A stretch of DNA of 22,560 nt. Source: a virus. The position numbers and the translations under genes are program-made. Below, one piece after another: positions 3,392 through 22,130 of the stretch (its first letter is position 1; each line of letters opens with the position of its first letter). The notes under the pieces were generated by a model. The model saw nothing but the letters and a program-made list of their open reading frames with translations, was not told where the DNA came from and did not search any database. The stretch spans positions 1-22,560 of the IMG/VR virus record IMGVR_UViG_3300028837_000175; one strand, written 5' to 3'.

Positions 3392-3540
3392 AGGAGCAAG
3401 TGAAGAAGGGGGAGGTCACTGCTTCGGAGGCTCGTGAGTGGTTGAAGCACGCAGCCATAGACAACAACGACTACCCCCGAGTGAAGGGGTGCCACACTTG
3501 GAAGTGGCTGAGTAGGAGGTGCGATGCCTCAGGAAATTGA
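3379..3540 (+). CDS. Small basic protein, 53 aa, linking gene in amidoligase unit
   Basis: A 53-codon frame starts at ATG 3379, overlaps the previous gene by 13 bases, and ends at TGA 3538-3540, overlapping the amidoligase gene by 17 bases. A purine-rich GGAAGGAGATGAAG lies directly upstream. The peptide is basic, with a helical N-terminal half (MRRLKEQVKKGEVTASEAREWLK) and two cysteines in the C-terminal half (GCHTWKWLSRRC). The VTASEAREWLKH stretch looks like a short helix-turn-helix or DNA-binding helix pair, though this is weak. Overlap on both sides argues that it is expressed and co-translated with its neighbours. The function is unknown. Confidence 0.5.
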   Translation: MRRLKEQVKKGEVTASEAREWLKHAAIDNNDYPRVKGCHTWKWLSRRCDASGN

Positions 3541-5053
3541 TTTCACCGGTACTCTACACTGCCGTGATTGCGGTAAGACAGGGGAGTACAAGACACAGGG
3601 TGGTAGGGTCACTGTCATTGAGGATGTAGAGGATTGGATGCTCTACCTCGGGCGGTACTCAACGGTGGAGGTGGTTGCAGTTGAGGATGCTACTGGCCGG
3701 CAGTTGATGGGTAACTGCCGCGCATCATGTGGTGACTGTGATCCAATGGACTTCACCCGTCAGTGCCCTTGGTGTGATGGCATCATCGACGAAGACTTCG
3801 AGCCAGGTATATACATGGATGGTTCGGATGAGGAGATATGCTACTCATGCTTTGAGGACAACGGGTTCAGATGTCAGGATTGCTCTTGCACCTACCACTA
3901 CAATGACTGTAACATCATCGACGAAGATCGCAGTGTGTGCCCTAGTTGCATTGAAGACTACTCATACTGTGACAACTGTGACAACTACACTGCTCATGGT
4001 AACATGAGGTACGCTGATGACATCATTGATATGCTTGACTCAGAGGGGAGGGACCAGGAGCTTGATGACTTTGATCCTGACTTTGAGCAGATGTGTTGCT
4101 ACTGTGCTGATGACAATGACTGGCCGAGTGCTAACATCCCTCACCTACCCGGTGGTCGCACACTCAACACCACGTTCACACCACCAGTTCGGTTTGGTAT
4201 CCTGAACTACACCTACAGGCCAAGCCCCATGATGGTGTACACTGCACAAGAAAAGGCCACGATGTATGACTTCGCTCTTGCTCACTCAAGGATTCAGGTG
4301 TTCGGCCTGGAGATAGAGGTTGAGAGTCAAGTGAGTAATGAGGACATCAACGCTCGGGCTGATGTCATCAACAAGATGGAAGAAGGTCAGCTGTTCTACT
4401 GTAAGTCTGATGTCTCCATCCGTAACGGATTCGAGATCGTCACTCACCCTGGCACCTTCGACTACTGGATGGGGAAGGGGAAGGACATACTCGAAGGGCT
4501 GTTCGATACCCTGAAGGCAGCAGGCTACACCTCATACCAGAGTGGGCGGTGCGGCCTTCACATCCACACCAACAAGTCACCGTTGACTAGGCTACAGATC
4601 TACAACATGGCCCGGTTCATACATGACAGGACAGTGACACCTAACCTTCGCAAGCTGTCCGGTCGCACTGACCAGCAGCTACTCGGCTACTCGTCACTGA
4701 ACTTGACTGACATCTATGACACCAACACTGGACGGTATGGTAAACCTAGCCCGGTTGACTATGCCAAGCAGATCAGACACTCATGGCGGATAGGGGATAG
4801 GGGTAGGGCCTTGAACCTATCCAACGCTGACACTGTGGAACTGAGGTTGTTCCGTGGCTCACTCAAGATAGAGAGACACAACGCTGGCCTTCAGTTCTAC
4901 AACACCCTGCTTGAGTTCGCCAACCCCACCAACGGTAAGCTCAAGGCCAGTGAGAAATCAAGGTGGCTTGACTATCGAGAATTCGTTGAACACTACCACC
5001 AACCCAAGGCCGTCAGAGAACTGAAGGCTCTACTACAGGAGGCCGGAATCTAA
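3524..5053 (+). CDS. Amidoligase-like (COOH-NH2 ligase) protein with cysteine-rich zinc domain, 509 aa
   Basis: The C-terminal half matches the glutamine-synthetase/GCS-like amidoligase fold. It has FGLEIEVES (260-268, metal-binding acidic residues), a GLHIHT motif (344-349; H346, H348) and ELRLFRG (439-445), the usual G-x-E-x-E, G-x-H-x-H and E-x-R-x-F signatures. Such enzymes use ATP to join an amine or ammonia to a carboxylate. The N-terminal 195 residues contain many CxxC pairs (C13/C16, C65 onward, C149/C152, C191-C194), predicted as tandem zinc fingers that could bind the target protein or nucleic acid. AGGAGG with 4-base spacing defines the ATG. Its stop overlaps the next ATG (TAATG), coupling it to a glutamine amidotransferase, a sensible ammonia source. 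The target is unknown. Family assignment is fairly firm; substrate is not. Confidence 0.75.
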   Translation: MPQEIDFTGTLHCRDCGKTGEYKTQGGRVTVIEDVEDWMLYLGRYSTVEVVAVEDATGRQLMGNCRASCGDCDPMDFTRQCPWCDGIIDEDFEPGIYMDGSDEEICYSCFEDNGFRCQDCSCTYHYNDCNIIDEDRSVCPSCIEDYSYCDNCDNYTAHGNMRYADDIIDMLDSEGRDQELDDFDPDFEQMCCYCADDNDWPSANIPHLPGGRTLNTTFTPPVRFGILNYTYRPSPMMVYTAQEKATMYDFALAHSRIQVFGLEIEVESQVSNEDINARADVINKMEEGQLFYCKSDVSIRNGFEIVTHPGTFDYWMGKGKDILEGLFDTLKAAGYTSYQSGRCGLHIHTNKSPLTRLQIYNMARFIHDRTVTPNLRKLSGRTDQQLLGYSSLNLTDIYDTNTGRYGKPSPVDYAKQIRHSWRIGDRGRALNLSNADTVELRLFRGSLKIERHNAGLQFYNTLLEFANPTNGKLKASEKSRWLDYREFVEHYHQPKAVRELKALLQEAGI

Positions 5054-6090
5054 TGTGTGTGATTGTCGTACAACCTGCCGGGGTTCAACTCTCCGGTAAC
5101 AAGTTCCGTAACTGTTGGGATAGGAACAGGGATGGGGGCGGGTACTCTTACGTTGATGATGGTAAGGTACTCATCAAGAAGGGGTACTTTGATTCAGTCA
5201 CCATGCTTGATGAGTACCGTGAAGATGTCAAGGCACATCCCGAGTCACCCTTCCTGATACACTTCAGGATCTCTACCTCTGGCTTGGTTGATGAGGTCAA
5301 CACTCATCCTCACCGGGTACGTCCTGACTTGGTGATGGCACACAACGGACACATCAGCGGGTATGGCAGCAAGGAACAGAGTGATACCCTTGAGTTCGTG
5401 GCTCTGGTACTGAGTCGTATGCCTGACAGGTGGGAGGATGATGAGCTTCAAGTCCACCTCATTGAGAGGTACATCAACGGTGACAAGATAGCCCTGCTCC
5501 GTGGTGATGGTGAGTATGGTATCCTCAATGAAGAGGCTGGCAACTGGCAGGATGGGCTGTGGTTCAGCAACAAGTCATGGACCAAGCCGCAGAAGGTGGT
5601 GCCTTGGGTCAACAACCCGAACAACCCTGCCAACAGGGGGAAGGCGGTAAACCCTACATCAAAAGGTCCTGGGGCGGGTGGGAATAGCGTCACTAGCCCA
5701 TCAGCATTCACTGCTTGTGGTTGGGATGATGATGATATGTATGGGGCATGGGGCAACGAGAGCCCTGACCTCATCACCTACTTCGATGAGACCTGTGCCT
5801 TCTGTGACATGAAGCTCAATGAGATGGACGCTGAGTTCTGTGTTGCACTGGATGCTTGGTACCCTGTGTGTATGGAGTGTGCAGTTGACAACGAGAAGGA
5901 ACTGGTTGAGTCCGGTGCCATGGCTGATGCGCTTGATGAGGTGTGGGATGAGGTGATTGATGCTTATGATGATGTCGAGCCGAATCAGATCCTACTGCAA
6001 GAGGTGGTCGACACTGACATCACTGAGGAAGACACGACACCTGTGACCTCCGGTCTTATGAGGCTCACTGCCAACGTGTTCGATTCGTAA
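5053..6090 (+). CDS. Class II glutamine amidotransferase (Ntn hydrolase) with C-terminal zinc finger, 345 aa
   Basis: The protein begins Met-Cys, and Cys2 would be the N-terminal nucleophile after Met removal. Further class II signatures follow at normal spacing: HFRISTSG with R72, and MAHNGHISG with N98-G99, which form the glutamine site and oxyanion hole. It should hydrolyse glutamine to glutamate and ammonia. There is no asparagine synthetase, GFAT or PRPP domain. Instead comes a Pro/Gly/Asn linker (about 190-220) and a zinc-finger-like segment (C248-x2-C251, C263, C273-x2-C276), then an acidic tail. The start overlaps the amidoligase stop by one base. I infer that the two proteins make one glutamine-dependent amidation system, with the zinc finger aiding substrate or partner binding. 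A stand-alone glutaminase role is possible but less likely. Confidence 0.8.
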   Translation: MCVIVVQPAGVQLSGNKFRNCWDRNRDGGGYSYVDDGKVLIKKGYFDSVTMLDEYREDVKAHPESPFLIHFRISTSGLVDEVNTHPHRVRPDLVMAHNGHISGYGSKEQSDTLEFVALVLSRMPDRWEDDELQVHLIERYINGDKIALLRGDGEYGILNEEAGNWQDGLWFSNKSWTKPQKVVPWVNNPNNPANRGKAVNPTSKGPGAGGNSVTSPSAFTACGWDDDDMYGAWGNESPDLITYFDETCAFCDMKLNEMDAEFCVALDAWYPVCMECAVDNEKELVESGAMADALDEVWDEVIDAYDDVEPNQILLQEVVDTDITEEDTTPVTSGLMRLTANVFDS

Positions 6091-6538: not shown

Positions 6539-6793
6539 ATGACTGCTACGGTGTGTCATCATACACGCAGTAAGGTCACAGATTCTAGATCAAGTGACCT
6601 CACTCACATCAGGTGCCGAAGGAGGCGTGAGTGTCTTGACTGTGGTGAAAGGTTCTCTACCGTGGAGGTGGATGCACTGGCGATGAAGCAGGTCAGGGGG
6701 TTCGAGTTGCACCTATGGATCAACAACAGAATCAAGGAGGCCAAGCGGTATGTTAGAGAGACAGATCTTGGCGGCACTCATCAGGCAGGATAG
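6539..6793 (+). CDS. NrdR-type zinc-ribbon protein, 84 aa
   Basis: Residues 6-40 closely follow the N-terminal zinc ribbon of the ribonucleotide reductase repressor Nrd[35 protein letters not shown] compares with the family's TRVxDSR...IRRRRECxxCGxRFTTxE. The second ligand pair C32-x2-C35 is intact. The first CxxC is replaced by C6-H7-H8, so the zinc would be held by Cys/His. The ATP-cone domain that senses dNTPs in true NrdR (total about 150 residues) is absent, and the rest is a basic helix. It therefore probably binds DNA through the ribbon without nucleotide sensing. The 3' end overlaps the helicase gene by 44 bases and contains its ribosome site AAGGAGG. Confidence 0.7.
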
Positions 6794-8922: not shown

Positions 8923-9676
8923 GAAACAAATGGACTGCCCTTCTTGTGGTAAGAAGAAGCACCTCTACCTGAACATCGAGAAGCAACTGTTCCACTGCTT
9001 CCGGTGTGGCTACAGTGGCCGGGCCAAGGACCTGGAGATGCAAGGGATCGCAGTGCCAAAGAAGACTGATGAGCTTCTGAAGCCATCGTCTCTCTCCTTC
9101 AGGGTAGCCGAGGGTATGTCCGACCCGCCTGAGTATTGGGATGCAGGCGATGACACGATTGATTACCTAGCAGATAGGGGGGTACATGTCACGATCCAGA
9201 AGTTGCTCCGAAAGAAAATCTATGAGACATCCAGAGGGATACTCTTTTTCTATCCCGACAGGGACTACTGGCAAGTACGTCACTGGTCAGCGTGGGCGCC
9301 CCCCCGTTGGCTTAACCCGACAGTGGCTCCGGTTACGCCTGCTGGTGGTGTGGTCTTTCATCTACGTACGCACTACGATAGCGACCGAGTGGTACTGGTG
9401 GAAGGTATTGTCGATGCCCTACGTGTTGCGCCGTTTGCGAATGTGGCCGCTGTACTCTCGACGAACATCCACGAGGCGCAGATATCTGGGCTGGCAGCCA
9501 TCTACGAGAGCTGCTCGATCATGCTCGACCGGGACGTGCACTTGTCCAAGCTTCTCGCACAAGGACGAAAGGTTGGAGCATACTTCAAACACAAGCACCT
9601 TGTCAAGTACCGGTCAGTAGATCCTGGCTCGGCAAGCGACGAGGAGATAGAGGAGGCACTACATGCTCACGACTGA
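8915..9676 (+). CDS. DnaG/T7-gp4-type primase (zinc ribbon plus TOPRIM), 253 aa
   Basis: Residues 8-31 form a primase zinc ribbon (C8-x2-C11 and C28-x2-C31, with the FHCFRCG pattern) that reads template for priming. A TOPRIM nucleotidyl-transfer core follows: VVLVEGIVDAL with the catalytic E163, and IMLDRDVHL with D205-x-D207, ending in a KHKHLVKY basic segment. It should make RNA primers for the UDG-PolA polymerase, working with the DnaB-like helicase. At 253 residues it is close to the primase half of T7 gp4 and much shorter than DnaG, so there is no helicase-interaction C-domain. ATG 8915 follows GAGGAAAAGA and overlaps the previous gene. The stop overlaps the next ATG by 14 bases. Confidence 0.85.
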   Translation: MAEKQMDCPSCGKKKHLYLNIEKQLFHCFRCGYSGRAKDLEMQGIAVPKKTDELLKPSSLSFRVAEGMSDPPEYWDAGDDTIDYLADRGVHVTIQKLLRKKIYETSRGILFFYPDRDYWQVRHWSAWAPPRWLNPTVAPVTPAGGVVFHLRTHYDSDRVVLVEGIVDALRVAPFANVAAVLSTNIHEAQISGLAAIYESCSIMLDRDVHLSKLLAQGRKVGAYFKHKHLVKYRSVDPGSASDEEIEEALHAHD

Positions 9677-9890
9677 TGAGTATCTCAATGAGTGGAACAA
9701 CGAAGACGAGAGCTATGACTGGGTGTGTTGCATCTGCCACTCCCCCACTGAGAAGGAGTACCGGGGGGTGTGTGTCAGCTGCGACCGGCCAGTGTGCCTT
9801 GACTGTGCCTTCAAGGTTGGCACCGAGCTTGAGTGTGAGGAGTGTTTCGCATCGATACCTACTGGTTGGCGATGCGCCTGGACTCCTTGA
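9663..9890 (+). CDS. Free-standing zinc-finger protein, 75 aa
   Basis: ATG 9663 has GAGGAGG 6 bases upstream and overlaps the primase stop. The protein is built around four CxxC pairs (WVCCICHS, CVSCDR, CLDCAF, CEECFA) with RING/PHD-like spacing, after an acidic start (DEYLNEWNNEDESYDW). It thus appears to be a compact treble-clef zinc domain with little else. Its last 56 bases overlap the start region of the UDG-polymerase gene in another frame. The first two Fe-S ligands (CxxC) of family 4 UDGs are missing from the downstream frame. A ribosomal frameshift joining this CEEC to the UDG domain is therefore conceivable, though a separate adaptor protein is simpler. Confidence 0.7.
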   Translation: MLTTDEYLNEWNNEDESYDWVCCICHSPTEKEYRGVCVSCDRPVCLDCAFKVGTELECEECFASIPTGWRCAWTP

Positions 9891-12132
9891 AGACGAGATG
9901 GGGTACCCCTTCGTTGGCGGTAGTGGTGGCCTTCTCAAGAAAGCGTTGGGTATCCTGGCTACCGAAGGTCTGGATCTCGATAGGGTTGGAGTAACAGATT
10001 CTGTGAAGTGTCGGCCGCAGCAAGACAAGCATGCACCGGCCAAGGCTAGACGTGAGTGCATCAAGTACCTTGAGCAAGAGGTCGCAGCATACGCACCGTG
10101 TGCCGTGATTGCAATGGGGTCGAAGGCTCTCTCCGCCCTCACCGATGGTGAGTTGACAGCCGTTAGCCCCAACCGTCTGAAGGTGCTTGACTACCAGGGC
10201 CTACCACTCATGGCGACCTTTCATCCAGCAGCCGTGCTGTATGATCGGACGAAGGCCCAAGACTTTCTGGATGACCTGCACGCCTACATGATCGCTGAGA
10301 TCTGGGACAAGCAGGAGTTCGACCAGCCCTTCGATGTCCGGCTGGTCAATGACCCGGAAGGTTTTGCTAGAGTACGGACGTTGCTCGAAGAGGAACCTGT
10401 CATCGGCTTGGACATCGAGACCGATGGGTTCACACCTCATGTCTTGACGGTGGCGCTTGCGATCTCAGGGATCAGCTATGTGCTACCGGTTCACCACATG
10501 GAGTCAAAGCTGGACGGTGAAGAAGTTATCCGATGGGTGGTTGAGCGCCATATCCTCAATCCAGATCGAACTCTTGTGGGACAGAACATCAAGTATGACT
10601 TGAGCATGATGATGAGAGCAGCCGGCCTGAGCACTACCCCAGTGCAATGCCGGACCAAGGACAGTATGCTGTACCACTACATGATGAATGAGCACAGCAC
10701 GGCGAGGAACCTGGACTACCTGTCCAGGGCCTTTACTAAACTTGGTGGCTACAAGGACGAGGTGCGCAATTCTGCGCTGGTTGAAGCCCCGATCCGGGAA
10801 CTAGCCCGGTACAACGGCAGAGATGCTGCGGTACCAGCACTCATCATAGAGTCCATACTCTCGCACCTGGATGCAACAGGCTACAGGTCAGAGGCGATGG
10901 AAGAATGCTACTCTCACCTCACCGCCTTCGTCTCCACGATGGAGGCAGCGGGGGTGAAGGTGGATCGTAAGCGGCTTGCGGTGGTGAAGGCTGAGCTTGA
11001 GGATGCCATCGAAGGTCTACGCATTGACGTTGAGAACATGGCACCGGAGGTGAATCTTGACAGTCCGAAACAGCTCTCCGAACATATATATGGGACACTG
11101 GCTCTGCCGATCCCAGACATCAAGGACGCCTGTACCCCGACTGGACAACCCTCAACCCGAGAGGATGTCCTCACCCACCTCAAACACCCATTCATTGACT
11201 CGCTACTGGAGTTTCGTGGACATGCCAAACTTCTCCGTACCTACGTCCGTGGAATTGAGGATAATCTCTGGCCCGATTCTACGGTCCACCCTCAGTTCTT
11301 CATCGCAAAGACTGACTTTGGAGGTACAGTTACCGGCCGGCTATCATGTAAACGTCCGGCCATGCAAACAATCCCCAGGGGATCGGACATTAGAAGTGTG
11401 TTCATCCCCCGAGAATCCAAGGGATGCCTATTGGAAGTCGATGCAGCGCAAGCCGAGCTCCGAATCGCCGCCTCTTTCAGTGGGGACCAAACTCTACTTG
11501 ACATCTTCCGAGGAGGGCATGACCCACATCAGGCTACCGCAGACCTTTGCGGAGTCGAACGACAAGTCGGAAAGACGATCAACTTTGCAAGCATTTATGG
11601 CGTATCTGCTTGGGGACTCACCGAAAAAGCTGGACTGCCCGAAGCCGTCGCCAAGCGGGTTGCGAAAACTATCAAGAGAGAGTGGGCTGGCCTCTATTCA
11701 TGGTTCGATGTGGTTAAGGCTACCGCTGTTCGTACCGGCGAAGTTAGCACAGAGTACGGACGATGGCGACGGGTTCCAGGTGCGGAACCCTCTACTCCCA
11801 AGGGCCGAATGCTCATGCGGGAAGCGGCCAACTTTGTCATCCAGGCGCCGGCTTCGGACTTCATTCAGACGCTCGGTGCGAGGCTTGCGCTCGACCTTGA
11901 GGGGGTGGCGGTACCGATTATGTCGAATCATGATGGACTGATGTTCGATGTCTTCGAGAAAAACAGACTACCACATGTAGTAGATACCCTCTTGACAACC
12001 CTCTCAGAGTTTCATAAGATAGTGCATGATGTGTTCAAGGTTCAGCTGGAGGTCCCCTTCGAGTGGGACATCAAGACTGGGCCCAACCTACAGCAGATGG
12101 ACAAATACAAAGGAGAAAGCGTATGCCAGTAG
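9835..12132 (+). CDS. polA-like: Family A DNA polymerase with N-terminal UDG-like domain, about 765 aa
   Basis: Domains in order: a family 4-like uracil-DNA glycosylase domain (1-165) with LLVGDAPGLLED, a KCRP...REC cysteine pair and the ATFHPAAVL motif; a DEDDy 3'-5' exonuclease with D193-x-E195, N251-x3-D255 and Y326-x3-D330 all present; and a PolA core with motif A D536AAQAE, motif B R576-x3-K580-x7-Y588G, and motif C H699-D700-G701. The O-helix position equal to E. coli Phe762 is F584. Motif C has Gly where most relatives have Glu. The UDG motif has Asp (GDAPG) where family 4 has Glu. The frame is open from 9676, but 9676-9830 is the shadow of the zinc-finger gene. GTG 9835 (or TTG 9829) is my best start, with no clear ribosome site. 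Confidence 0.85.
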   Translation: MRSVSHRYLLVGDAPGLLEDEMGYPFVGGSGGLLKKALGILATEGLDLDRVGVTDSVKCRPQQDKHAPAKARRECIKYLEQEVAAYAPCAVIAMGSKALSALTDGELTAVSPNRLKVLDYQGLPLMATFHPAAVLYDRTKAQDFLDDLHAYMIAEIWDKQEFDQPFDVRLVNDPEGFARVRTLLEEEPVIGLDIETDGFTPHVLTVALAISGISYVLPVHHMESKLDGEEVIRWVVERHILNPDRTLVGQNIKYDLSMMMRAAGLSTTPVQCRTKDSMLYHYMMNEHSTARNLDYLSRAFTKLGGYKDEVRNSALVEAPIRELARYNGRDAAVPALIIESILSHLDATGYRSEAMEECYSHLTAFVSTMEAAGVKVDRKRLAVVKAELEDAIEGLRIDVENMAPEVNLDSPKQLSEHIYGTLALPIPDIKDACTPTGQPSTREDVLTHLKHPFIDSLLEFRGHAKLLRTYVRGIEDNLWPDSTVHPQFFIAKTDFGGTVTGRLSCKRPAMQTIPRGSDIRSVFIPRESKGCLLEVDAAQAELRIAASFSGDQTLLDIFRGGHDPHQATADLCGVERQVGKTINFASIYGVSAWGLTEKAGLPEAVAKRVAKTIKREWAGLYSWFDVVKATAVRTGEVSTEYGRWRRVPGAEPSTPKGRMLMREAANFVIQAPASDFIQTLGARLALDLEGVAVPIMSNHDGLMFDVFEKNRLPHVVDTLLTTLSEFHKIVHDVFKVQLEVPFEWDIKTGPNLQQMDKYKGESVCQ

Positions 12133-15901: not shown

Positions 15902-16041
15902 GCAGCTACTTGGTTGACAAGATCGTAGACCTCATCATCAAACACTTGGCGCCAAAGGTCGACGGCCTAGAAGCTCAGCTTCTGGCCGATGACATCGTCG
16001 CCCTGGTTGATGAGTGGATCTCTACTGATCTCTATGCGTAG
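15898..16041 (+). CDS. Small helical protein, 47 aa, last gene of rightward block
   Basis: A 47-codon frame starts at ATG 15898 (ATGA overlap with the previous gene) and ends at TAG 16039-16041. It is acidic and amphipathic (YLVDKIVDLIIKHLAPKV, then EAQLLADDIVALVDEWI), resembling a short helical-hairpin protein. The C-terminal helix of the preceding protein has similar composition, so the two may interact. Its end overlaps the 3' end of the converging leftward gene by 10 bases (16032-16041). The function is unknown. Confidence 0.55.
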   Translation: MSSYLVDKIVDLIIKHLAPKVDGLEAQLLADDIVALVDEWISTDLYA

Positions 16042-16271
16042 CGGTCGAGGGCGTTGTTGAACTTGTCAACATGCCACTGGTTCACATACGCCCCTCGATC
16101 ATTCTTTCTTACTGAGCCTGCGTTGTAGGCTGCGACCGCATCTGTGATGTTACCATCGTACCGATCCAGCTGGTAGCGGATGTATGCGGCAGTCAGATAG
16201 ATGTTCACTTCGGGATCGTGAAGGAGTTTGTTGAACGATGACTCACCTCGTGTGGATAGTTCTTCTACTGC
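16032..16271 (-). pseudogene. Lytic transglycosylase, C-terminal fragment (cut by adapter)
   Basis: Read leftward, residues following the artefact are AVEELSTRGESSFNKL, DPEVNIYLTAAYIRYQLDRY and ITDAVAAYNAGSVRK. The DPxxNIxxxxxYxxxxLxxY and A-x-x-AYNAG motifs are typical of the C-terminal half of SLT/lytic transglycosylases, which cleave the glycan chain of peptidoglycan. The part that should carry the catalytic Glu and the GLMQ motif is missing. It should precede residue 1, exactly where the sequencing adapter (16272-16337) is joined. I treat this as an assembly-broken gene, not a natural pseudogene. The apparent GTG start with MYKRQ is adapter translation. In phages such enzymes open the cell wall for DNA entry or lysis. 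Confidence 0.8.
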
Positions 16272-16337
16272 CTGTCTCTTATACACATCTCCGAGCCCAC
16301 GAGACTAGGCATGATCTCGTATGCCGTCTTCTGCTTG
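16272..16337 (+). other. Illumina Nextera adapter contamination (assembly artefact)
   Basis: These 66 bases are a full read-through adapter: the 19-base transposase mosaic end (16272-16290, CTGTCTCTTATACACATCT), the Nextera read-2 portion (16291-16305, CCGAGCCCACGAGAC), an 8-base index (16306-16313, TAGGCATG, which I recall as Nextera i7 N706), and the reverse-complemented P7 end (16314-16337, ATCTCG...CTGCTTG). In the leftward frames it translates to the known artefact peptides KQKTAYEIM and MCIRDR or MYKRQ. It is not part of the genome. The flanking sequences may be non-adjacent, or may be separated by an unknown missing segment. Confidence 0.98.
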
Positions 16338-16519
16338 AAATACTCCAGCACAGCCGAGGCGTCCGTGTGGATCATCTGGTTGTCAACGTGCTTGTACGCG
16401 GTCATGCCGAACGCAACCACGGCAACCAAACAGCTGCCCACAATGGTAGCTGTCACCTTCGCTAGTAGTGATCCATCTTTGAACATGCAGTGTATCCCCT
16501 TACGGATTAGACGCTCCAT
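16338..16519 (-). CDS. Membrane-anchored N-terminal fragment, probably of the lytic transglycosylase
   Basis: The leftward frame starts at ATG 16519 (GGAG 4 bases upstream) and overlaps the previous stop. ATG 16486, with AAGGGG overlapping that stop, is an equally plausible start. A basic start is followed by one membrane segment (VTATIVGSCLVAVVAFGM), then a short polar stretch ending DASAVLEY at the adapter boundary. Everything after that in the open frame is adapter translation. Given the orientation and the transglycosylase C-terminus just beyond the adapter, the simplest reading is one membrane-anchored transglycosylase gene with a missing middle. The frames of the two fragments differ, so continuity cannot be shown. 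Confidence 0.6.
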
Positions 16520-16799: not shown

Positions 16800-19700
16800 T
16801 TACTCCCGTAGGTGTTGTCGCAGACGTTGGAGCGGGTTCTGCGGAGGCGGTGCCCCCTCTTCGAACTGCTCAAACGGGTTGACCTCTAGCTCCCCCTCAG
16901 TGGGGTTCGTAGCGGCCAGTTCTTTTGCGTTCAATGCTATGTCACCAGCTACCTTGGCCCCTCGTGACTGTGTGAGGTCCATGATGATCTGGTTGTAGCG
17001 CTGCCAGTCCTCTCGCCGTACTGCGTCTGCTACCATCGCGGTGAGCTGACCGGTACTGAGGCCCTTGGACAGCGGGAGTGCGGTACCGACTATGCCGAGT
17101 ACCAGCTTCTGGTCCCAGTCCAGGCCACGTAGTGCAGGGTTGGTGAAGGCTCCCAAGCTGAAGGGAGTGAAGCCACCTATCGCGTTGTTGACCGCGATGG
17201 TAAACCCGTCATCCCACCCCATCTCCTTCCCTTCTTTCAAGTACCGGGCCTTCTGGATAGACACATCCATGATAGTGCTGAATGGTACCTGAATCCAGGG
17301 CATGATCTTCCTGCCCAGAAAGGTGCCGATGAAGGCTCCGTCACTGTGGACATAGGGCTTGGCGCCGTGGTAGCCGGGCCGGAAGCCCATCGAACCCCCA
17401 GCCTGGAGGCCGGGCTGTGCGCCTACCGCAGTCCCGAGTTCGCGGAACTGTTTGCCAATGTGCCACATGATGGGTCGGCCGTCCTCATCTACCTGCCCAG
17501 TGTCTACGTAGAAGACCTTCTTGCCGGGCTCGTTCTCCCACATGTAGTGGCCGGATAGTACCTTGTTCATGATGTTCGCGTAGAAGGCCCAGCCCATCAG
17601 GGCGTTGCGCCAGTGGCGGAGGCCCATGATACCTCGTGCGGGGTTGGAGGATCGGAGGCCGGGGATCGCCTGAGCAAATGACAGGCTGGCCCGGATAGCC
17701 GAAGCGTTCCAGTCCACAGAAGTAAACGCAAAGTTAAGTTGCTTGAGGGTGTTGGGCTTGGACATCCAGTTCTCGATCCACCCTCGGGTGTGTGTCTCGA
17801 ATGCCTGGGAGCCGAACTCGTCGTTGATGTAGGAGCCGACCGCCCGAGACAGCGCCTCGTCGTCCATCTCCTGTAGCCCCTTCTTCATCCAGCGGAGGTT
17901 CTCAGGGACGATCCTGCCCATGCCCCCACCCGTGTCTCGGATCATCTTGAGGTTGTTGTACGTGATGTCGTACGCGATGACCTTCATGGGGGTGTGGTAC
18001 TTGGACCAGATCGCAGTGTCGAACCACTCCTGCATCTTGAGGAGCTTCTTCACTGAGCCCTTAGCCAGCCGCTTCCCACCGATGGTGGGGGCTTTGGAGG
18101 CCAGCCTGTTGGCTAGCTCCGAGAACTGGTCAGCCATGATGTCATTCATGGGTGCGCTCAGCTTGACCCCTGCTTCAGAAGCAGAGGTGAAGGCCTCCTT
18201 GTAGCTGTTGGGGGTGACTAGGTGGGCAAGCGCTTCTCCATCTGCCCAGCCTGACCCCCTTGCGAGGAGGTTGTTCTTGGCGAGGGACAGGTTGACCCTC
18301 ATGCCTTGGATGGGATTGAGCAGGGCCACACTTGACTCAGCCAGTGAGTACATGTGGAACAGGGTGAACATGAAGTTCGACCGCTTGGCGATGGCTGACA
18401 ACGCCATCATCCCACCTAGCTCAGTGGGCTGCTCGATGATGTTGCGTAGGTGTTTGCCCACCTCCTCATGGACGTAGACCGTGGTGTTCTTCCTCACACC
18501 CTCCGGTACTTCCTCCCTCATAATGCGGTCAGTGAAGGCGGAACGGAAGCGTACGTACCCCTTGGGCACGCCCTGGTGGGGTGTCAGGCGCACGAACGCC
18601 GGTAGGTCCATGCTCTTGGTAGCCAAACCGAATTCGTTGAGCTCTTTGACGAGCTTCTTGGTAGCGAGGACTCGTGCCAGCTGCTGCTCCATCAGGCCGT
18701 ACATCACTGCGATGTCGTCCGTCCGGGGGGTGAGCTTGGCCTTGGTCATGCCCTCGTGGTAGGTGTTGAAGAAGCGTGGCCGCTCCGACCCATGCTTGAT
18801 CGGTAGCTCGTAGTAGGGGATGGACCCCAGCTTGGCCTCGACATCCTTGATCGGCTCGTCCCACATGTGGTGCAACCAGTTCTTCACGTACTGATACTCA
18901 CCGTCACCGATCTGGACGTTGAGCTCGTTCATCTCCTTGAAGAGATTGTCGAACCGGTCCCGTAGGTAGTTCTTCCACCACACTGCTTGCTCGAAGTGTC
19001 CGCTGTCCTTAAGGCGCTGGACTACCCCAGCGTAGGTATCCTTCTCCCCCTTCGCCAACCGCCAGGGGTTGGCCGTCTCTTCGAGGAAGGGAATCATGTC
19101 CTGCCGGATAGCCGGGTCAGGTAGGGCGGTCTTCATCCTCTGGTAATCTACCCCCACTTGACGGAGGTAAGTCTGCTGCTCGTTGAGGAAGGAACCGGCG
19201 ATGCGGTAGGCTTCCTTGGCGTTGCCCGTCATCTTCCATACTGGGTCGAAGAAGCGAGGCATGCGCCACCGCTTGGAGTTCGGGTCCTTCGCCACTGCCT
19301 TCGCCACCCTACCAGCCTCCTTGACGGCGGGGGACAGCGCGTTCTTCTGGCCTGACAGCTGGGCGAACTCAGTCAGGAACTGGTGGGTCTGTCGTGCCTG
19401 AGCAGCTAGTGCTGGCTCAGCGTAGTGTCGTCCGACCTCGCCTTGTCGGACCATTGTGTCGATCTCTTTCCACAGGGCCGTGGCCTTCTGCGGCACGAGG
19501 TGTCCGAGGCCGGCGTTCTGGACTGCTGCATCCGCTGCGGCCGCTCCTCGGAGCTTTGTCATCTGCTCCTTCGTGACGTAGGGTAGCTTCGTATCCTGGA
19601 AAGGACGGGGCTCGAACACGGCGGTGGGAACTCCACCTACCTTGCCCTTCCTTGTCATAGCAGCTGCACCCTTGCGCTCGGCGATATACCGGAGGCGCCG

Positions 19701-20867
19701 GGTCTCAGCTACCTGCACTTCCCCGAAGATGTTGCTGATGATCTCATCCATGCTGGGGATGCGGGGTGCCCCTGGTGGTTGGGCGCCCATGCGTGCTGCC
19801 CGCAGCTCAGCGTTGACTAGGCCCTCGGCAAAGGCGGCACCGTCAACAGCCGGGTGCGCCCCCCTGCCTGTTCGGGCTAGGAGGTCGAGGGACATACCGA
19901 GCTTGGTCTTCGCCCACTTCCCCCCTTGCGCCACACCTCTCAGTACCCGGCCAGCGTTGCCTGAGCCTACCAGGGCACCGATGCCTAGCGTGACGCCCTT
20001 CACTGTGAGGCCAGTACCTAGGGCAACTAGCTTGGCCGTCTTCCCTACAGGGTTGATGGCAGCAGCTCCCGCGTTGGCGGCGACACTGCCTAGACCCATA
20101 GAGAGGCCAGGGCCGAAGGCTGAGATCTCGTCCACCCCCCGCTGCTTGTTCAGGGCGTTTATGTACTCTGCCTCGACCTCGATCAGATCGTTGTACGACT
20201 GGAAGTAGGGCTCCATAAGCCGGTACGATAGCGGAAGATCCTCCGTACCGTGCCGAGTAATAGGGCCAGTGGGGGCCTCCCCGGTAATCAGCGAGGTCAG
20301 GTTCTGCGGCGCTGCGATTGCCTCATCCTCCACATACTGGGGGTTTCTGCCAGCGGCCATGTTCCAGACCGCTGAGCGACCCTCTTTGCCCCCCGTCCAC
20401 ACGGCCCGACCTAGGGCCTTGGCCGTGCGAATCGGGTGGCGTACTGCTTCGAACTGAGCCTTGATCCCTGTGTTCAGGAACTCGTTGGTCTTGAGAGGGT
20501 GCCTCACCGGGTAGGTGAGGGCCTCCCCAACCAGCGCGATCATACCAGGGAACAGGTTGATCTCTGACTTGATGGCCTCCGTGATGACCGCGTCCTTGTA
20601 CTCGATCTTCTTCTGGTCAACAATCTCATCCCAGTAGTTGTCCACCGGGATGTCGTAGTTGGTACCGTCTGGCTTCTTCCAGCCACGGGTGAACATATGG
20701 CTATCCCGGAACCAATTGTGGATCTGCTCCGGGGGGTTCTCCTGAATCAACCCGTCGATCATGGCCTGAATATCTACCTGGTTCGTGGTCGGACCAGTAC
20801 CCATCCCAGGGTTCGCCATCTGGTCATTGTACGAACTGAGCAGATCGTTTACTAGAGGACTCGCCAT
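16800..20867 (-). CDS. Giant putative internal virion/ejection protein, 1355 aa
   Basis: This is the largest gene in the window. No enzymatic motif is recognisable. The protein is mostly helical, with a Gly/Ala-rich hydrophobic zone around residues 245-305 (GLGSVAANAGAAAINPVG and TVKGVTLGIGALVGSG), another hydrophobic region around 825-850 (FTLFHMYSLAESSVALLNP) and a third near 1255. Very large size, scattered membrane-compatible stretches and position after two smaller virion-like genes fit T7 gp16-type ejection proteins. Those form a channel across the envelope and in T7 carry a transglycosylase domain. Here that activity would be supplied by the separate gene downstream. Start and upstream stop are adjacent (TAAATG), with GAAGGACA as ribosome site. 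A structural role is inferred from context. Confidence 0.6.
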   Translation of the reverse strand: MASPLVNDLLSSYNDQMANPGMGTGPTTNQVDIQAMIDGLIQENPPEQIHNWFRDSHMFTRGWKKPDGTNYDIPVDNYWDEIVDQKKIEYKDAVITEAIKSEINLFPGMIALVGEALTYPVRHPLKTNEFLNTGIKAQFEAVRHPIRTAKALGRAVWTGGKEGRSAVWNMAAGRNPQYVEDEAIAAPQNLTSLITGEAPTGPITRHGTEDLPLSYRLMEPYFQSYNDLIEVEAEYINALNKQRGVDEISAFGPGLSMGLGSVAANAGAAAINPVGKTAKLVALGTGLTVKGVTLGIGALVGSGNAGRVLRGVAQGGKWAKTKLGMSLDLLARTGRGAHPAVDGAAFAEGLVNAELRAARMGAQPPGAPRIPSMDEIISNIFGEVQVAETRRLRYIAERKGAAAMTRKGKVGGVPTAVFEPRPFQDTKLPYVTKEQMTKLRGAAAADAAVQNAGLGHLVPQKATALWKEIDTMVRQGEVGRHYAEPALAAQARQTHQFLTEFAQLSGQKNALSPAVKEAGRVAKAVAKDPNSKRWRMPRFFDPVWKMTGNAKEAYRIAGSFLNEQQTYLRQVGVDYQRMKTALPDPAIRQDMIPFLEETANPWRLAKGEKDTYAGVVQRLKDSGHFEQAVWWKNYLRDRFDNLFKEMNELNVQIGDGEYQYVKNWLHHMWDEPIKDVEAKLGSIPYYELPIKHGSERPRFFNTYHEGMTKAKLTPRTDDIAVMYGLMEQQLARVLATKKLVKELNEFGLATKSMDLPAFVRLTPHQGVPKGYVRFRSAFTDRIMREEVPEGVRKNTTVYVHEEVGKHLRNIIEQPTELGGMMALSAIAKRSNFMFTLFHMYSLAESSVALLNPIQGMRVNLSLAKNNLLARGSGWADGEALAHLVTPNSYKEAFTSASEAGVKLSAPMNDIMADQFSELANRLASKAPTIGGKRLAKGSVKKLLKMQEWFDTAIWSKYHTPMKVIAYDITYNNLKMIRDTGGGMGRIVPENLRWMKKGLQEMDDEALSRAVGSYINDEFGSQAFETHTRGWIENWMSKPNTLKQLNFAFTSVDWNASAIRASLSFAQAIPGLRSSNPARGIMGLRHWRNALMGWAFYANIMNKVLSGHYMWENEPGKKVFYVDTGQVDEDGRPIMWHIGKQFRELGTAVGAQPGLQAGGSMGFRPGYHGAKPYVHSDGAFIGTFLGRKIMPWIQVPFSTIMDVSIQKARYLKEGKEMGWDDGFTIAVNNAIGGFTPFSLGAFTNPALRGLDWDQKLVLGIVGTALPLSKGLSTGQLTAMVADAVRREDWQRYNQIIMDLTQSRGAKVAGDIALNAKELAATNPTEGELEVNPFEQFEEGAPPPQNPLQRLRQHLRE

Positions 20868-22130
20868 TTATTGTCCTTCGCCATACATGGGCTGCAAGTA
20901 GCCTTGGTCGATGAACCCCTGTGTCAGGTCCAGCATGTCCTGCTTGGCCGCTTCGTAGTCGAAGCCATGAGCCTGGAGTATGGTAGCATACCTGGAGTTC
21001 AGGCCCGAGACATCCTCCCCCTGCATGAACATCTGCTGATACAGTGGGGGCAGGTCCTCGAACGTCACTTCAGGTTGGGTGTATATAATCTCGCCTTGGC
21101 CGGGGTAGAGAACATCCTGCCCCGTATCGCCAGGTGGGAATGGCGCAGGCTGACCTGCTGCGATAGCTGCTCGATTGACTACATCGAAGGCCGACTCGTT
21201 GGGCTGGGATACAATCCGCTCATTGGCCTTGTCCTGGAGGTATACCCTGGCTTGGTCATCCATCCTACCCTTGATGGTGTTGGCCTCGGGGTGGCTACCC
21301 AGAGTGGACATCAAGAGACCGGGATCTCTAGCCTCGTTTGCACCAACGTACCCCTTGGCATTCTCCCAATCGGTGCCGTAGTCCCGCTCGAACTGCTCGA
21401 TGTTTGAGTTGAACTCCCTCCAGAGGGAACTGACACCCGGTGAACTCTCACCTAGGCTGCGGTTGAGGTGGATCATTTGAGCCAACCCCAAGTACCTCGG
21501 CTCCAGCTGTGACTGGACGAGATCGAGGTCAGCCCTTGCCGCAGCTTCAGCTCCCGGTGCTAGACCGGGCTGCTCAGTCGGGGTATCGGCTGTTTTCAGT
21601 GCAGCGAGGAGCCCTTGGCCTACTCCACCAATGGCCCCAGCGATTGCATTCCCGGAACCTAGCTGGCCTTGTGATCTGATCCTGGCTAGCTCAAGGGCCC
21701 GTTCGTGGTCAGTCAATCCATCGGAGAGCTCGTTGGCTCTGGCTGTAGCTGCTGTCCCCCTTACGCCTGCTGAGAGGTCAGCACCGGCACCAGCCAATCC
21801 CCCGGTAGTATCCACATCGTAGCCAGCGCCTGCACCCGTGCCGAAGATCTCATCTATGAGATCCTGCTCCTTCACACCTCGGGCAACGCCAGCTACCCTC
21901 CCCTCCTCCCCGAGCCTGGCTTCATTCACCATGCCGAACGCCCCTGCTACCCCGCCGAACTGCTCGTCAGGGAAGGCATCGGACAGTGCTGCCTGGATCT
22001 CCGGGGTCTCTGCTAGCGCCGGGTTCTGGGATACCAGCTGAGTCAGCAGCTGCCGGGTGATGGCATTCCGCTGCTCGTCCTGCTCCTGGATAGCCGAGAG
22101 TCCGGCACCAAACGATTCAAAGAGTCCCAT
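20868..22130 (-). CDS. Putative virion/ejection protein, 420 aa (T7 gp15 position)
   Basis: Unrecognised at motif level. The N-terminus (MGLFESFGAGLSAIQEQDEQRN) is followed by Ala/Gly-rich, low-complexity stretches (GTGAGAGYDVDTTGGLAGAGAD near 97-118, and AIAGAIGGVGQGLLAALK near 164-181). Then come a long helical region and a more acidic C-terminus (FEDLPPLYQQMFMQGEDVSG). Such Ala/Gly-rich helical proteins are common among internal virion proteins. It overlaps the upstream gene by one base (TAATG), has GGAGGAGGG about 9 bases upstream, and abuts the giant protein gene without a gap, so the three are surely one transcription unit. The ejection role is inferred from gene order. Confidence 0.6.
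   Translation of the reverse strand: MGLFESFGAGLSAIQEQDEQRNAITRQLLTQLVSQNPALAETPEIQAALSDAFPDEQFGGVAGAFGMVNEARLGEEGRVAGVARGVKEQDLIDEIFGTGAGAGYDVDTTGGLAGAGADLSAGVRGTAATARANELSDGLTDHERALELARIRSQGQLGSGNAIAGAIGGVGQGLLAALKTADTPTEQPGLAPGAEAAARADLDLVQSQLEPRYLGLAQMIHLNRSLGESSPGVSSLWREFNSNIEQFERDYGTDWENAKGYVGANEARDPGLLMSTLGSHPEANTIKGRMDDQARVYLQDKANERIVSQPNESAFDVVNRAAIAAGQPAPFPPGDTGQDVLYPGQGEIIYTQPEVTFEDLPPLYQQMFMQGEDVSGLNSRYATILQAHGFDYEAAKQDMLDLTQGFIDQGYLQPMYGEGQ

Follow-up and report, generated by a model that had tools for sequence, protein, structure and literature searches.

The stretch of DNA analysed here, a 22,560-base virus record classed as such in IMG/VR (hereafter the window), carries a pair of overlapping genes that we identify, from sequence and structure modelling, as encoding a putative GS-fold amidoligase and a putative class II glutamine amidotransferase. 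The pair is a member, in two-gene form, of a widespread and already described phage cassette. Our preferred reading, to which we give a probability of roughly one half, is that the two proteins together amidate, at the expense of glutamine, an early target in the host, with a cell-wall peptide as the likeliest candidate.

The amidoligase gene occupies positions 3524-5053 of the plus strand (509 residues) and is followed on the same strand by the amidotransferase gene at 5053-6090 (345 residues). The two reading frames share one base within a TAATG stop/start overlap at 5051-5055 (plus strand; TAA at 5051-5053 and ATG at 5053-5055), and a gap of -1 is also the commonest spacing of the two genes among relatives found with the amidotransferase as seed. 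Each start is preceded by an AGGAGG ribosome-binding site that can be read directly from the plus strand, at 3514-3519 for the amidoligase and at 5037-5042, within the 3' end of the amidoligase gene, for the amidotransferase, which makes the latter start credible. The first-pass annotation had described this overlap, both reading frames and a set of active-site residues in each protein, and all are present at the positions it gave. No tRNA genes were found in the window.

The predicted catalytic core of the amidoligase spans residues 260-509 (4301-5050, plus strand) and contains E263/E265, D296, E304, H346/H348 and E439/R441. The protein matches Amidoligase_2 alone in Pfam, at 20.4 bits against a cut-off of 22 bits (E 5e-4), and its best match in PHROGs is an unnamed family (2.7e-23), with amidoligase families matched too. 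When the window protein was aligned with eight distant homologues, all nine matched Amidoligase_2 (PF12224) at E <0.1 (best 8e-54). An NCBIfam search returned no amidoligase match, and a sequence search for a solved structure of the catalytic core found none. The AlphaFold model, built on 86 sequences, has pLDDT values mostly >90 across the core, and its best neighbours in the PDB by Foldseek are YbdK, glutamine synthetase, PafA, Dop and plant glutamate-cysteine ligase (best E 5e-6, with modest target-normalised TM-scores of 0.2-0.4). Many of its matches in a viral structure library are named amidoligase and one is named 'LIM domain containing protein', while a protein of the giant virus Catovirus CTV1 has the same fold, indicating that the GS-like amidoligase fold is not tied to peptidoglycan. 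Residues G261, E263, E265, D296 and H346 are invariant in an alignment of 170 amidoligases that includes the seeds and some near-identical contigs, whereas E439 and R441 are found in 169 (one row being gapped) and H348 and E304 in 168. The claim that the amidoligase signatures are intact is therefore upheld across 168-170 of 170 relatives, and the profile and structure searches proposed as its check place the 509-residue protein among the GS-fold ligases, with the ExE, D, E, HxH and ExR catalytic and metal-binding set of Amidoligase_2 present.

The partner is predicted to begin with an Ntn glutaminase domain (residues 1-176; 5053-5580, plus strand) which is modelled at pLDDT ~97 and displays the N-terminal nucleophile C2 together with R72, N98, G99 and D111, the residues expected of a class II amidotransferase. 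Searched as a single sequence the protein gives weak matches, with GATase_4 and GATase_6 both below threshold in Pfam, but a profile of the protein and seven relatives has the GlmS glutaminase domain as its top match (9e-11), and a fold search with the model (E 6e-7) returns GlmS first and then EgtC. Residues C2, G30, H70, R72, H85, P86, N98, G99 and D111 are invariant in 154 of 154 amidotransferases, again counting alignment seeds and some near-identical contigs, so the glutaminase residues singled out earlier (C2, R72 and N98-G99) are indeed intact. The HMM search suggested as a check returns Amidoligase_2 and GATase_6, each below threshold from a single sequence. From profile, fold and residues, we assign the product of 5053-6090 to the class II glutamine amidotransferases, with glutaminase activity as its probable function.

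Ergothioneine synthesis uses the same two folds together, in EgtA and EgtC, and an arrangement of that kind is for this reason the strongest rival to amidation. Here the amidoligase would tag an amine or thiol with a gamma-glutamyl group, which would later be taken off by the Ntn partner. The Foldseek matches to plant glutamate-cysteine ligase and YbdK for the amidoligase and to EgtC for its partner are consistent with such chemistry, as is the gamma-glutamyl cyclotransferase gene found near the pairs of some relatives. Moreover, the class II amidotransferase folds include hydrolases that do not donate ammonia, which, together with the presence of EgtC among the fold matches, counts against the amidation model. 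Sequence and catalytic residues fail to separate the two readings because both bind a gamma-glutamyl moiety with the same types of residue. Nevertheless, the GlmS glutaminase fits the partner better than EgtC by fold and provides the top profile matches, and we regard the ergothioneine-like arrangement as unlikely, albeit the main competitor. For a GS-fold ligase coupled to a class II amidotransferase, glutamine-fed amidation offers the simplest explanation.

The two genes are coupled in nearly every relative. IMG/VR was scanned separately with amidoligase and amidotransferase seeds (80 loci each), and the partner was found on the same strand, no more than 500 bases away, in 76 of 80 and 79 of 80 loci, respectively; since the seeds came from paired loci, paired versions may be over-represented in these counts. 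The amidoligase is nearly always the first gene of the IMG/VR pairs, often overlapping the second by 1 or 10 bases, and the pair also adjoins in 73 of 80 loci from bacterial genome contigs, mostly of Oscillospiraceae. Across the same 55 loci, the distance matrices of the two proteins correlate at r=0.89, compared with 0.58-0.71 against DnaB, primase or PolA, and so the amidoligase and amidotransferase travel together to a greater extent than either does with neighbouring genes. The near-universal adjacency and matched divergence argue well for the coupling that the first-pass annotation had proposed. Against strictly obligate pairing stands Clostridioides phage AR1086-1 (L007:3668-5857), where no recognisable amidotransferase lies directly downstream of the amidoligase; the gene in that place looks nucleotidyltransferase-like by eye. 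Two amidoligase genes occur in or near one cassette at six other loci (L031, L032, L055, L027, L118 and L124). No natural fusion of the two proteins was found, and a single-protein scan of IMG/VR and GTDB contigs found no close relative of either window protein.

Both proteins are extended by cysteine-rich stretches whose spacing suggests zinc binding. The N-terminal extension of the amidoligase (residues 13-194; 3560-4105, plus strand) is LIM/treble-clef-like by profile and accounts for the eight CxxC motifs of residues 1-260, located at residues 13, 69, 81, 106, 117, 139, 149 and 191. It is modelled at pLDDT ~66-93 over residues 81-200, and the family profile of this region resembles LIM and other zinc-binding proteins marginally (LIM E 0.001). 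The amidotransferase carries a C-terminal CxxC...CxxC arrangement (residues 248-276; 5794-5880, plus strand; pLDDT ~62-75). Such predicted zinc extensions are a general feature of the family: the amidoligase N-terminus holds a mean of 4.6 CxxC motifs compared with 0.9 in shuffled sequences, and at least two are present in the N-terminus of 150 of 170 amidoligases and the C-terminus of 61 of 154 amidotransferases. We also considered the joint presence of the extensions as evidence for a shared function and rejected it, because the extensions show 9 and 8 inferred character changes in the two partners with just one on a shared branch, and the association is mostly clade structure. The cysteine-rich stretches are thus real in both proteins, as the first-pass annotation had it, but, being family-wide, they are not by themselves evidence for the macromolecular target that it drew from them.

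If the extensions did recognise a host protein, its carboxylates might be amidated or conjugated, as Pup and its targets are by PafA and Dop. These two enzymes rank among the best fold matches of the amidoligase, multiple predicted zinc modules are present on both partners and a RimK-like ATP-grasp ligase is encoded by roughly half of the closest marine relatives, all of which would suit a protein substrate. The pair persists, however, in those parts of the family in which the zinc modules are absent or reduced (15 of 170 amidoligases and 92 of 154 amidotransferases contain no CxxC), and we consider a protein-directed system of this type distinctly improbable. A broader version, in which the zinc-bearing pair would be an amidation or conjugation machine directed at protein or nucleic acid, separate from the presumed wall cassette and with its zinc modules selecting an early host macromolecule, is rather doubtful. 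In the amidation model that we prefer, the extensions would probably hold the two proteins together or hold the substrate.

The pair sits beside the replication module of the phage. Downstream of it in the window are genes for a small NrdR-like zinc ribbon protein, DnaB, primase and a UDG-PolA fusion, and within 2.5 kb downstream of the pair in the 80 amidotransferase-seeded loci there is a primase in 56 and DnaB in 44. This position, in which primase, helicase and polymerase follow directly both in the window and in many relatives, is what might be expected of enzymes that modify phage DNA bases or a nucleotide; searches of the window and of the main conserved neighbour clusters tested (Pfam/PHROGs) recovered no base-modification gene, and we give this explanation hardly any weight. 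An auxiliary role in nitrogen metabolism, of the kind put forward for phage ZRK32, in which the amino-acid pools of the host would be fed, seems very unlikely too. PMC10945688 describes better growth with a phage that has genes of this kind, but the effect is described there for the whole phage and not for single genes, and the cysteine-rich extensions and strong divergence are ill-suited to a housekeeping role. A known defence system was likewise rejected, as neither protein matches a known anti-phage defence family in PADLOC.

Other genes recur around the pair in relatives. The RimK-like ATP-grasp gene is present at 37 of the 80 amidotransferase-seeded loci, usually straight after the amidotransferase, and matches a PHROG named ribosomal protein S6 glutaminyl transferase; a profile derived from these relatives found no match in the window, which is a fragment, and around half of the relatives also have none. 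WhiB lies nearby in 23 of the 80 amidoligase-seeded loci and a lytic-transglycosylase-like gene within 2.5 kb in 21; we count the latter in favour of the amidation reading.

Several further features of the window deserve mention in their own right. The zinc ribbon protein just downstream of the pair (6539-6793; 84 residues) contains an NrdR-type ribbon (6e-11) without the rest of NrdR. The gene at 9676-12132 encodes a family A DNA polymerase fused to an N-terminal uracil-DNA glycosylase-like domain, with homologues at ~25% identity in Serratia, Lysinibacillus and Gordonia phages. On the minus strand, 16800-20867 and 20868-22130 encode proteins of 1355 and 420 residues that have no match in Pfam, PHROGs or a phage collection. 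Positions 16271-16340 hold what we take to be a complete Illumina Nextera read-2/i7 adapter, with index TAGGCATG and P7, which truncates a lytic-transglycosylase-like reading frame (16032-16286, minus strand). This suggests a contig misjoin, so that the window beyond it, on the right, may derive from a different molecule; the adapter lies ~10 kb from the gene pair and leaves the conclusions about the pair unaffected.

The first-pass annotation had presented the pair as a candidate system, but it belongs to a phage cassette that is already in the literature. A larger cluster has been termed the 'peptidoglycan modification cassette' and assigned a proposed role against superinfection (PMC5498523, PMC11945000, PMC11318856), and Iyer et al. 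2009 is the source cited for the described phage cassette in PMC5498523 and PMC10580990. LUZ24-like and Pa11-like phages carry the cassette, and related full versions are found in UFV-P2 (PMC3890496) and StenR_269. The window shares the clustered Amidoligase_2 and class II amidotransferase with the cassette of RIO-1/PSA-HP1, LUZ24, tf and phiEco32 (Iyer 2009, Hardies 2013, PMC5498523). It differs from the peptidoglycan modification cassette in that Pfam/PHROG-type searches of the window found no ATP-grasp, COOH-NH2 ligase or gamma-glutamyl cyclotransferase, and in that both of its proteins bear the predicted zinc extensions. As the ATP-grasp is missing, we class the window with the two-gene form of the pair and not with the full cassette.

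Other close parallels are compact. In the Methylophilales (OM43) phages MEP401 and MEP402 (gp06-gp07 of MEP402) an overlapping pair immediately precedes primase, helicase and polymerase, as in the window, and their amidotransferase is 36% identical to that of the window over residues 1-180; their amidoligase, by contrast, has a longer and mostly non-cysteine N-terminal extension and their amidotransferase lacks the C-terminal CxxC pair. Mycobacterium phage Marvin encodes an adjoining pair (gp105-gp106) with CxxC clusters in both proteins, as here, although at ~30% identity and at the genome end, away from replication genes. The two-gene zinc-bearing form is common in gut Clostridia genomes: the pairs of Oscillospiraceae such as Oscillibacter valericigenes Sjm18-20 and Butyricicoccus pullicaecorum DSM 23266 consist of a zinc-bearing amidoligase and then an amidotransferase, with no ATP-grasp match, but they are located in bacterial genome contigs that may or may not be prophage and show ~24-33% identity.

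The amidation reading would work as follows. The amidoligase and amidotransferase would form a single enzyme system, produced in the early phase of infection, as might be expected from PSA-HP1, whose cassette genes are transcribed immediately on infection (PMC7082346). The amidotransferase would hydrolyse glutamine to release ammonia, and the amidoligase would activate a carboxylate with ATP and condense it with that ammonia, thereby converting a carboxylate of the host into an amide; where an ATP-grasp ligase is also encoded, amino acids would probably be added as well. A cell-wall peptide precursor is the most likely target by analogy with MurT/GatD, the peptidoglycan glutamate amidation system in which an ATP-dependent ligase is fed by a glutamine amidotransferase. 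The likeness is one of function: MurT is Mur-ligase-like, GatD belongs to the class I amidotransferases, and neither is homologous to the phage proteins (PMC3267633). A cell-wall target is also the one most often proposed, and our preference for it draws on those literature proposals too. The benefit to the phage may be an early change to the envelope, for example one directed against superinfecting phages, and the two-gene form of the OM43 phages has been discussed in the same envelope and superinfection terms (PMC10580990). The earlier statement that the target in phages lacks demonstration agrees with the open-access literature searched, in which no experimentally shown target, activity, complex or substrate is reported.

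The pair extends from marine podophages to mycobacteriophages and the genomes of gut Clostridia, and is thus a widespread enzyme pair. Compact versions are found in cultured systems, namely Marvin in M. smegmatis, MEP401/402 and Clostridia type strains, and the substrate of the pair would reveal what it is that many phages alter in the host shortly after they enter it.
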